From: Burkholderiales bacterium
GTDB lineage: Bacteria; Pseudomonadota; Gammaproteobacteria; Burkholderiales; JAEUOS01
Direction: 5' to 3'
NCBI GenBank assembly: GCA_016790695.1
Contig: JAEUOS010000188.1
Location: 1-64,000, forward strand
Length of the DNA: 64,000 nucleotides
Shown here: positions 49,621 to 53,090 of the stretch, one piece after another
Layout: the number at the start of each line of letters is the position of its first letter
Position numbering within the stretch: position 1 is the stretch's first letter
The notes under the pieces: model-generated
Told to the model about the DNA's origin: nothing
The model's database searches: none
Seen by the model: the letters and a program-made list of their open reading frames with translations, nothing else
Made by a program: the position numbers and the translations under genes

Positions 49621-51684
49621 GTGACATCCGCCGCGAAGATCGTGCGCACGATGTGCCCGATGAACTGCCACCCGACGCTGTGCGGCATGCTGGCCGAGGT
49701 GGAAGGCGGGGCCCTCAAGAGCGTGCGCGGCGACCCGGACAATCCCGACAGCCGCGGATTCCTGTGCATCCGCGGGCAGGCCTCCGCCGAGATCATCGGC
49801 AACCCGGGCCGGCTTCTGCATCCCCTGGTGCGGGAACGCCGCAGCGACGAATTTCGCCGCGCCACCTGGGACGAGGCGATGACGCGCATCACTGCCGGCA
49901 TCCGCGAGGCCGACCCGGCCGCCACCGCGATCTGGCCCGGGCACGGGACCTTCACGACCAACTACGGCACGCGGGTGAGCGCGCAGCTGATGGCGCGCTT
50001 CGCGAATTTCCACGGCAGCCAGTTCTTCAGCCCGACCATGGTCTGCTGGGGGCTCGGCGCGTTCGGACTCGCACTCACCGGCATGCTCGAGACCCACACC
50101 AAGGAGGACATGGGCGCGCATGCGCGGCTGATCATCCTGTGGGGCGCCAATCTCGCCAGCCAGCCGAACACCGCGCGGCACCTGCTGGCCGCGAAGAAGC
50201 GCGGCGCGCACATCGTCGCGATCGACGTGCGCCACACCGAGGCGGCGGCGCAGGCCGACGAGGTCCTGCTGATCCGCCCGGGCACCGACGGCGCGCTGGC
50301 GCTGGCGATGATGCACGTGATCTGCGGCGAGGGACGGCACGACGCGTCCTTCGTCGCCGCGCACACGGTCGGGTTCGACGCGCTCGCCGCGCGGGTGCGC
50401 CAGTATGCGCCGCCATGGGCCGCAGGCGTGACCGGCGTTCCGGCCGCGGCGATCGAGAATCTCGCGCGCCGCTATGCCGCCAGCCGGCCGGCGATGATCG
50501 TCCTGGGCGGCAGTTCCATGCACAAGGGTGACAACGGCTGGCAGGCATCGCGCGCGATCGCCTGCCTGCCCGGCCTGACCGGCAACGTCGGGATCCCCGG
50601 CGCCGGCTTCGGCCCGCGCCATGGCGGTGCCGCCCACGGCAGGGGACTGGCGAGCATCGCCGAGCCGGGCCGGCGCAGGCCGGGGACGGCACTGCCCAAC
50701 CAGATGTCGGCATTCACCGATGCGCTGCGCGCGGGCCGCGTCGCGAACCTGCTGCTGATGGGCACCAACATGCTGTCCTCGTTCGCGGACGCGACCGCCG
50801 TGGCCGACGGCCTGGACCGCACGCGCCTGGTGGTGAGCTACGACCTGTTCCTCAACGACACCGCGCGTCGATACGCCGATGTCGTGCTGCCGGGCACCGC
50901 CTGGCTGGAGGAACTGGGCGTGAAGTCCGCCTTCACCCACCTGTACCTGATGGAGCCGGCGCTCGCGCCGGCCGGCGAGGCGAAGTCGGTGCACTGGTTC
51001 CTGACCGCGCTCGCCGAGCGTCTGGGCCTCGCGGACTTCCATCCCTGGGCTTCCGAGGAAGCGATGATCGACGCCATCCTCGACCACCCGGCGACCGGTC
51101 GCGCGACCGTCGCCGCCCTGCGTGCCCGGGGCGGCATCGGTGAACTCGCCATTTCGCATGTGGCGAATCCGACGCTGCAGTTCGACACACCTTCGCGCAG
51201 GATCGAGTTTCATTCGGCCGTCGCCGAGGGCCTCGGCCTCGACCCGCTGCCGTGCTACGACGCGCCCGCGCCACGGCCGCCGGCGTATCCCCTGACACTG
51301 GCCCACGGACGCACGCTGGCGCACTTTCACGGCTTCTACGACAACGGCCGCGCGCTGCCGACGCTGGCCCGGCGCGAGCGCGCGCCGGTGCTGTGGATCG
51401 CCGCGCCGGACGCCGCCGCGCGCGGCATCGCGCACGGCGCGCGCGTGCGCCTGTGGAATGCGCGCGGGGCACTCGCCGCCGTCGCGCGGGTGACCGAGCG
51501 CATGACGCCCGGCACGGTGTGGATGCGCGACGGCTGGCCCGGCCTGAACGTCCTGACCTCGGGCGAGCCGGTGCTGCCCGACGCCGCGGTCGACGTCTTC
51601 GCGTTCTCTGCGGGGCAGGCGAACTTTGCCGCCTGCGTCGACGTCGAGGCAATCGGCGGCGACGCAGGCGCGGTCGCCGGCTAG
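49621..51684 (+). CDS. Molybdopterin oxidoreductase, single subunit
   Basis: DMSO-reductase-superfamily enzyme with bis-MGD cofactor; the substrate is unknown. 687 residues from a GTG start. N-terminal 4Fe-4S ligands C12, C16, C21, C49 (C-x3-C-x4-C-x27-C), candidate Mo ligand C142 in TMVCWGLG, and a C-terminal molydopterin-dinucleotide domain (about 560-680). No twin-arginine signal peptide, so it should act in the cytoplasm. No Fe-S or membrane partner subunit is adjacent; a MoaD-like gene follows after 16 bases. Confidence 0.85.
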   Translation: MTSAAKIVRTMCPMNCHPTLCGMLAEVEGGALKSVRGDPDNPDSRGFLCIRGQASAEIIGNPGRLLHPLVRERRSDEFRRATWDEAMTRITAGIREADPAATAIWPGHGTFTTNYGTRVSAQLMARFANFHGSQFFSPTMVCWGLGAFGLALTGMLETHTKEDMGAHARLIILWGANLASQPNTARHLLAAKKRGAHIVAIDVRHTEAAAQADEVLLIRPGTDGALALAMMHVICGEGRHDASFVAAHTVGFDALAARVRQYAPPWAAGVTGVPAAAIENLARRYAASRPAMIVLGGSSMHKGDNGWQASRAIACLPGLTGNVGIPGAGFGPRHGGAAHGRGLASIAEPGRRRPGTALPNQMSAFTDALRAGRVANLLLMGTNMLSSFADATAVADGLDRTRLVVSYDLFLNDTARRYADVVLPGTAWLEELGVKSAFTHLYLMEPALAPAGEAKSVHWFLTALAERLGLADFHPWASEEAMIDAILDHPATGRATVAALRARGGIGELAISHVANPTLQFDTPSRRIEFHSAVAEGLGLDPLPCYDAPAPRPPAYPLTLAHGRTLAHFHGFYDNGRALPTLARRERAPVLWIAAPDAAARGIAHGARVRLWNARGALAAVARVTERMTPGTVWMRDGWPGLNVLTSGEPVLPDAAVDVFAFSAGQANFAACVDVEAIGGDAGAVAG

Positions 51685-51700
51685 TCCTCCCGCCGCCGCC

Positions 51701-51970
51701 ATGGTCAAGGTCGAATTCGCCGCCGCGCTGCAGCGCCATGTGCCGTGCGCACCGCAGTCGGTCGCGCCCGGCACGTTGCGCGCGGTGCTCGAGGCTGCGC
51801 TGGCCGCGGCACCGGGACTCGCGCACTACGTGTTCGATGACCAGGGTGCGGTGCGCAAGCATGTCGCCGTCTTCGTCAATCAGCAGCAGGTGCGCGACCG
51901 TGTGCGCCTGGACCGGCCGCTGGCCGACGGCGACAGCGTATTCGTGGTGCAGGCACTGAGCGGCGGATGA
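51701..51970 (+). CDS. MoaD/ThiS-like beta-grasp sulfur-carrier protein
   Basis: 89 residues from the ATG at 51701 (MVKVEFAAALQRHVPC). The ubiquitin-like fold ends in the diagnostic LSGG: the terminal Gly-Gly is adenylated and thiocarboxylated in MoaD and ThiS. HVAVFVNQQQVR and LADGDSVFVVQALSGG match the C-terminal half of the family. No MoaE, MoeB/ThiF or ThiG gene is in the window, so its activating enzyme would be elsewhere. It lies between the Mo oxidoreductase and the propeller protein. Confidence 0.82.
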   Translation: MVKVEFAAALQRHVPCAPQSVAPGTLRAVLEAALAAAPGLAHYVFDDQGAVRKHVAVFVNQQQVRDRVRLDRPLADGDSVFVVQALSGG

Positions 51971-51995
51971 CACGGGCAGCCGCGGGGAGGGAGGC

Positions 51996-53090
51996 ATGGG
52001 AACACTGTTGGTAGGCACGCGCAAGGGCCTCTTCGTGCTCGAGGGCGCAGGCGAGGCGTGGGAGTTCGTCGGGCACCATTTCGCCGGCGACCCGGTGAGC
52101 CAGGTACTCGCCGACGCGCGCGACGGCAACTGGTATGCGGCGCTCAATCTGGGGCATTTCGGCATCAAGTTGCGCCGCAGCGGCGATCGCGGCCGCACCT
52201 GGACCGAGGTTGCATCGCCTGCGTTTCCGGCCAAGCCCGCTGCCGGACCCTGGGCCGACGATCCCACGCCCTGGAGCGTCGAGCTGATCTGGGCGCTTGC
52301 GGCCGGCGGGGCCGACGAGCCCGGCGTGCTGTGGGCCGGTTGTCTGCCGGCGGGGCTGTTTCGGTCTGCCGACCGGGGTGCGACCTGGCAGCTGTGCCAA
52401 TCCCTCTGGCACGACGCGCGGCGCCGCGACTGGACTGGCGGCGGCTACGATCAGGCCGGCATACATACGGTGCTGGTCGACCCGCGCGATGCGCGACACC
52501 TGACGCTGGGCATTTCCTGCGGCGGTGTCTGGCAGACGCGCGACGGCGGCGCCAGCTGGGAACTCACCGGCCGCGGCATGCGCGCCGACTTCATGCCGCC
52601 GGAGCGCGCCGAGGATCCGAACATCCAGGACCCGCACTGCATTGCGCAGTGCCTGGCGGACCCCGACGTCCTCTGGATGCAGCATCATGGGGGGATCTAT
52701 CGCTCGGTCGACGCGGGCCGCCATTGGCTGCCGATCGCCGCGGCCGGGCCGAGCACGTTCGGCTTCGCGGTCGCCGCGGATCCCGGCAATCCCGGCCGCG
52801 CCTGGTTCGTGCCGGCGCAGGCGGATGCCTGCCGCATTCCGGTTGGCGGTCGCATGGTGGTCACGCGCACCGACGACGGCGGCGCCAGTTTCCAGGTCTA
52901 CGGCGAGGGCTTGCCGCAGCGGCATGCCTATCATTTGGTCTATCGCCACGCGCTCGCCGTCGGCGGGGATGGCGACACGCTGGCGATGGCGTCGACCACG
53001 GGCGGCCTGTGGGTGAGCACGAACGCTGGCCGGAGCTGGGCGTGCCTCTCGCGCGACCTGCCGCCGGTCGCCGCGGTGCGATTCGCCTGA
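51996..53090 (+). CDS. BNR/Asp-box beta-propeller protein
   Basis: 364 residues with six Asp-box repeats (S/T-x-D/N-x-G-x-x-W/F) starting near 62, 124, 181, 237, 292 and 341, as expected for a six-bladed propeller. Databases often name such proteins exo-alpha-sialidase, but I see no sialidase RIP motif and no signal peptide, so a cytoplasmic scaffold or an unknown enzyme is more likely. It starts 25 bases after the MoaD-like gene, which suggests that the two work together. Confidence 0.8.
   Translation: MGTLLVGTRKGLFVLEGAGEAWEFVGHHFAGDPVSQVLADARDGNWYAALNLGHFGIKLRRSGDRGRTWTEVASPAFPAKPAAGPWADDPTPWSVELIWALAAGGADEPGVLWAGCLPAGLFRSADRGATWQLCQSLWHDARRRDWTGGGYDQAGIHTVLVDPRDARHLTLGISCGGVWQTRDGGASWELTGRGMRADFMPPERAEDPNIQDPHCIAQCLADPDVLWMQHHGGIYRSVDAGRHWLPIAAAGPSTFGFAVAADPGNPGRAWFVPAQADACRIPVGGRMVVTRTDDGGASFQVYGEGLPQRHAYHLVYRHALAVGGDGDTLAMASTTGGLWVSTNAGRSWACLSRDLPPVAAVRFA

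Follow-up and report, generated by a model that had tools for sequence, protein, structure and literature searches.

Gene content of the locus

The window, that is, the whole stretch of 64,000 nucleotides that was analysed, belongs to a Burkholderiales genome (G000) and carries three closely spaced genes on its forward strand:

49621-51684, + strand: Mo oxidoreductase, GTG start, 687 aa; PF04879, PF00384 and PF01568 all above cut-off
51701-51970, + strand: MoaD/ThiS-like beta-grasp protein (carrier), 89 aa, C-terminus QALSGG; PF02597 above cut-off
51996-53090, + strand: Asp-box beta-propeller protein, 364 aa; BNR/Asp-box repeats above cut-off; homologue of 3b7f

According to the window translation, 16 bases separate the Mo oxidoreductase from the carrier and 25 bases the carrier from the propeller; gene positions and gaps were correct as first given. 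Pfam identified the first gene product as a molybdopterin oxidoreductase with a 4Fe-4S domain. No MoaE, ThiG, E1, JAMM or CysM gene adjoins the three genes. The first-pass annotation had also reported that MoaE, ThiG and E1-like genes are absent nearby, and the MoaE and E1 genes of G000 indeed sit on other contigs. In addition, it had proposed that the Mo enzyme, the carrier and the propeller might form one system.

The carrier and its relatives in the same genome

The carrier belongs to the ThiS/MoaD superfamily (PF02597, ThiS; E 4.6e-8, 33.9 bits, cut-off 22.5) and ends in SGG. Nearly all copies of the pair carrier terminate in (S/T)GG, and 77 homologues are encoded immediately upstream of homologous propellers. 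Y43, Q84, A85, L86, G88 and G89 are conserved at 98-100%. The sole aligned carrier with a frame continuing beyond SGG (QALSGGCERAV...) stems from an Acidobacteria MAG (L129 7595-8059), where the extension is either a sequencing error or a stop loss.

M. tuberculosis CysO is the closest solved chain (3dwg/3dwm, E 6e-5), and the best NCBIfam model is SAMP1 (NF041918, E 5e-10), with 39.8 bits against an equivalog cut-off of 60. TIGR01682 (moaD) did not match the carrier, while the real MoaD of G000 exceeds the cut-off of this model. CysM and the JAMM protein Mec, the genetic partners of CysO, were not found at the pair loci (one JAMM query), nor was ThrC. On these tests, the carrier falls outside the MoaD, CysO and SAMP1 families.

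A whole-genome search of G000 revealed five ThiS-family genes: a ThiS-like gene (contig C133), a MoaD beside the sole MoaE (C31), the pair carrier and two others. The only full-length E1-like gene is located on C39. Since G000 has its own MoaD, MoaE, ThiS-like gene and E1, the pair carrier does not replace MoaD, a possibility that had been considered at first. An E1-like gene was found in 31 of 32 pair genomes. Two further G000 loci were recorded. A MoaD-like gene ending in IEGG directly follows an apparent molybdenum hydroxylase large subunit (L005 946-1197, C135) and forms a second Mo-enzyme/MoaD-like neighbour pair. The fifth ThiS-family gene (L003 1480-1710, C138) ends in VAGG, stays below the NCBIfam cut-offs for MoaD and ThiS and is followed by a small ORF of no known family.

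The propeller

The sole close solved relative of the window propeller is 3b7f (Reut_B4987 of Ralstonia eutropha, from structural genomics), which was matched over the full length (profile positions 4-367) with E 1e-55 as a single sequence and 1e-84 by profile. The predicted model of another pair locus, L098, resembles 3b7f with a Foldseek TMt of 0.88. The propeller had been described as six-bladed, but six is the number of its Asp-boxes (starting at residues 62, 124, 181, 237, 292 and 341). A 2009 paper (PMC2716378) lists 3b7f as a seven-bladed propeller with function 'not known', and its passages on 3b7f give no gene partner. The window propeller, too, probably has seven blades. No signal peptide was seen at its N-terminus, and the protein is apparently cytoplasmic.

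The propeller had been said to lack sialidase hallmarks, and profile searches confirmed that it does not match a sialidase family: only BNR/Asp-box repeats scored above cut-off, whereas the sialidase, GH74 and Vps10 profiles did not. In RefSeq, the carrier is nevertheless annotated as 'MoaD/ThiS family protein' and the propeller as 'exo-alpha-sialidase', as seen in plasmid-borne pairs of Pseudomonas aeruginosa and Mitsuaria (L184 4699-6095, L186 4603-6074). The latter label looks like a misannotation.

Residues invariant in 60 of 60 close homologues include R9, K10, H54, K58, R143, Q211, D212, H214, Q229, H231, D277, R280, R317 and H318, with H157 conserved at 98%. In a broader alignment of 17 rows, K10, H157, H214, Q229 and R317 were still invariant. 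The conserved polar and charged residues are distributed along the chain roughly blade-wise, a sequence pattern compatible with a single central site.

Conserved linkage of carrier and propeller

When 84,980 species genomes were scanned, at least 576 propeller relatives were found, of which the best 80, from named genomes, were inspected. In 77 of these best 80, the propeller gene is directly preceded on the same strand by a MoaD-like gene. Contig ends account for two of the three misses (L127, L133); in the third, L123, the gene is genuinely absent. The 80 loci cover at least five phyla (Pseudomonadota, Planctomycetota, Acidobacteriota, Verrucomicrobiota and Chloroflexota), so that the neighbourhood is conserved well outside this genome. 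The distance between carrier and propeller is short (median 31.5 nt, maximum 134).

Two further samples gave analogous results. Among 185 genomes of the class, 22 encode a full-length propeller, and 20 of these 22 have a MoaD-like gene ending in GG nearby; in one of the 20 (L028), yqeC lies between propeller and carrier. A phylum-wide sample (299 genomes) contained 15 full-length propellers, 13 of which adjoin a carrier as judged by coordinates. In the propeller tree, all cases with an upstream MoaD fall into one clade (support 100/99) and those with a downstream carrier lie outside it, indicating that the linkage survived a change of gene order. Two propeller subclades (L026/L027 and L174/L175) have no neighbouring carrier; the propeller may therefore work without a carrier or with one encoded elsewhere. 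The mirror-tree correlation between carrier and propeller was r 0.87, but neighbouring genes are inherited together in any case, and we do not read it as a sign of contact.

All-against-all ORF clustering revealed no broadly conserved third gene in the upstream-order loci, and hence none that points to a substrate. The clusters around the pair were limited to LysR regulators, ABC transporters and local synteny within Burkholderia or Massilia. The neighbour count suggested in the first-pass annotation thus sustains its idea of a dedicated carrier-propeller pair and yields no third partner. That is, carrier and propeller are a genuine, widespread two-gene module of known folds.

The Mo oxidoreductase and a possible molybdenum link

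None of the 80 related loci encodes a Mo oxidoreductase within about 8 kb of the pair; the enzyme is a neighbour in this genome only, and we reject it as a member of the module. Of the system proposed at first, the carrier-propeller half is therefore conserved and the Mo enzyme drops out. The tight spacing of the three genes in this genome would speak for a three-gene system that includes the Mo oxidoreductase, but given the neighbourhood count we regard such a system as extremely improbable.

A broader role in molybdenum is conceivable. The pair might act in molybdenum cofactor handling, for instance by helping to sulfurate or mature Mo enzymes; the carrier would then donate sulfur (or selenium), and the propeller would serve as a chaperone or transferase. 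MoaE was present in 32 of 32 pair genomes examined, and within the class sample in 22 of 22 propeller genomes versus 130 of all 185 (Fisher p 3e-4). Many genomes that lack MoaE are small, however; genome size confounds the association in part, and it is no more than suggestive of a molybdenum link. The Mo oxidoreductase next to the pair in this genome fits such a role, as does a subclade with YqeC between or beside the pair genes. However, a Mo enzyme of the window type is not conserved beside the pair, and the YqeC-type genomes, analysed below, do not consistently encode the expected hydroxylases. On balance, we consider molybdenum cofactor handling unlikely, but the strongest of the alternatives.

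A subclade with YqeC and an E1-rhodanese protein

In two species of one genus (G155), the pair is part of a larger operon that comprises the propeller, YqeC, a carrier ending in SVAGG and an E1 with a rhodanese domain; in a third species, the contig terminates inside yqeC:

L187, 6043-10547: propeller-YqeC-carrier-E1(rhodanese) operon
L194, 2974-6740: propeller-YqeC-carrier-E1(rhodanese) operon

Apart from weak MoeB-like matches in L106 and L113, a MoeB-type E1 accompanies the pair in this genus only. Among the genomic data, the E1-rhodanese gene of this operon gives the best hint of an activation of the carrier at its C-terminus. The L187 operon has a QueF gene immediately upstream. Two other genomes encode a propeller followed by YqeC without a neighbouring carrier (L055 7581-9444, L056 8904-10815).

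The YqeC of the subclade scored 159 bits against TIGR03172 (cut-off 73). The yqeC gene marks selenium-dependent molybdenum hydroxylases and the maturation of molybdenum hydroxylases. Deleting it in C. difficile had little effect, however, and the role of YqeC is itself uncertain (PMC11448449). YqeB was not found in six genomes searched, nor does any of the five YqeC-type genomes examined have it, and we rejected a selenium-hydroxylase link through YqeB. Not all of the YqeC-type genomes encode Mo hydroxylases; three of the five lack any MoCoBD_1 hydroxylase. These findings count against a role in molybdenum cofactor handling.

Alternatively, the beta-grasp protein could be a protein modifier of the SAMP/TtuB/Urm1 kind, with the propeller as target, adaptor or ligase-like partner. 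The near-invariant GG and the invariant K10 and K58 of the propeller fit this idea, and SAMP1 is the best NCBIfam model. But the carrier stays below the SAMP1 cut-off, a search of the pair loci with a single JAMM query revealed no deconjugase, and there is no sign of conjugates. We judge a modifier to be unlikely, and less likely than a role in molybdenum cofactor handling.

Possible docking in structure predictions

For structure prediction with AlphaFold2, carrier and propeller were joined into single-chain fusions in which intervening stop codons were read as glycine. The read-through fusion of L098 (509 residues, 33-residue linker) was predicted with a mean pLDDT of 90.6 and a pTM of 0.87. 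By our own arithmetic, a pTM of about 0.73 would be expected without docking, as the propeller makes up about three quarters of the chain. Since the predicted value lies above this expectation, the model suggests that the two L098 domains are positioned relative to each other. The fusion of the window pair (four-letter stop-codon reading, 10-residue linker) did not reproduce this result, as its pTM of 0.78 approximates the contribution of the propeller alone; the outcome over the two models is thus mixed. In both models, the GG tail was of low confidence or disordered.

The L098 model is compatible with a stable complex, in which the beta-grasp protein might be a structural part of the propeller and no longer undergo C-terminal chemistry; this would account for the linkage by itself. 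But a structural function alone would not explain why the two terminal glycines of a flexible tail are almost invariant, and the E1-rhodanese gene in the operon of one genus also speaks against it. We consider a purely structural function very unlikely, more so than a protein modifier.

Discussion

Our preferred explanation, to which we give about an even chance, is a dedicated CysO/MoaD-type carrier that is charged by the E1 of the cell and has the propeller as its partner or acceptor. The C-terminal Gly-Gly of the carrier would be adenylated by a housekeeping E1 of the MoeB/ThiF type encoded elsewhere, such as the single one of G000, and most likely thiocarboxylated by the same enzyme, a step that a MoaD-like family match does not show in itself. 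The charged carrier would then dock on the seven-bladed propeller, which might fill the role of CysM, MoaE or ThiG, either as an acceptor enzyme or as a substrate-binding partner. Its conserved basic, His/Gln-rich residues could form a single site, and the substrate of the propeller would receive sulfur from the carrier.

We found no published description of the pair in the literature searched, which is no proof of novelty. Three surveys of beta-grasp proteins (PMC1779556, PMC1949818, PMC2948915) contain neither sialidase or BNR terms nor a propeller partner, and the pair appears to be undescribed so far. In its boldest form, our reading would be that of an undescribed sulfur-carrier (or ubiquitin-like) system in many phyla, hidden under the label 'exo-alpha-sialidase', in which a cytoplasmic seven-bladed propeller enzyme acts together with a thiocarboxylated beta-grasp protein and makes a sulfur-containing product or serves Mo enzymes. 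For this full statement, we rate the chance as somewhat less than even.

The known partners of MoaD/ThiS-type carriers (MoaE, ThiG, CysM and others) each mark a distinct sulfur-transfer pathway. A new and widespread partner fold suggests that a pathway is missing from our picture of common bacteria, among them Burkholderia, Pseudomonas, Cupriavidus and Planctomycetes. If true, 3b7f would gain a function and a misleading annotation would be corrected.

Comparison with known systems

With the MoaD-MoaE molybdopterin synthase, the pair carrier shares the ThiS/MoaD superfamily (PF02597) and the GG tail, but it is unmatched by TIGR01682, and MoaE is located on another contig beside its own MoaD. 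SAMP1 and the ubiquitin-like small archaeal modifiers provide the best NCBIfam model; in contrast to these, the pair carrier scores below the curated cut-off, is bacterial and has a propeller as partner. The Asp-box propeller fold is common to the window propeller and the GH33 sialidases, GH74 and Vps10 proteins, whose family profiles do not match the window propeller above cut-off; no secretion signal was seen in the window propeller. GH33 sialidases are characterised by a catalytic Arg triad, a Tyr/Glu pair and an Asp. Over its full length, the window propeller belongs to the same family as 3b7f.

The closest parallel is the CysO-CysM-Mec system of Mycobacterium and others, in which a small beta-grasp Gly-Gly protein is found as in the pair and CysM draws on the C-terminal thiocarboxylate of CysO to make cysteine. 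CysO is the nearest solved chain to the pair carrier, and CysO-type genes are its nearest profile matches outside the pair; unlike CysO, the pair carrier is accompanied by a propeller and not by CysM, ThrC or the JAMM protein Mec. The carrier profile also matched genes of one bacterial family (f188) in ThrC-carrier-CysM-MoeB clusters, as well as one carrier beside MoeB-rhodanese and JAMM. No propeller match was obtained in the genomes with CysO-type loci. Propeller loci and CysO-type loci separate cleanly, as if the propeller stood in the place of CysM.
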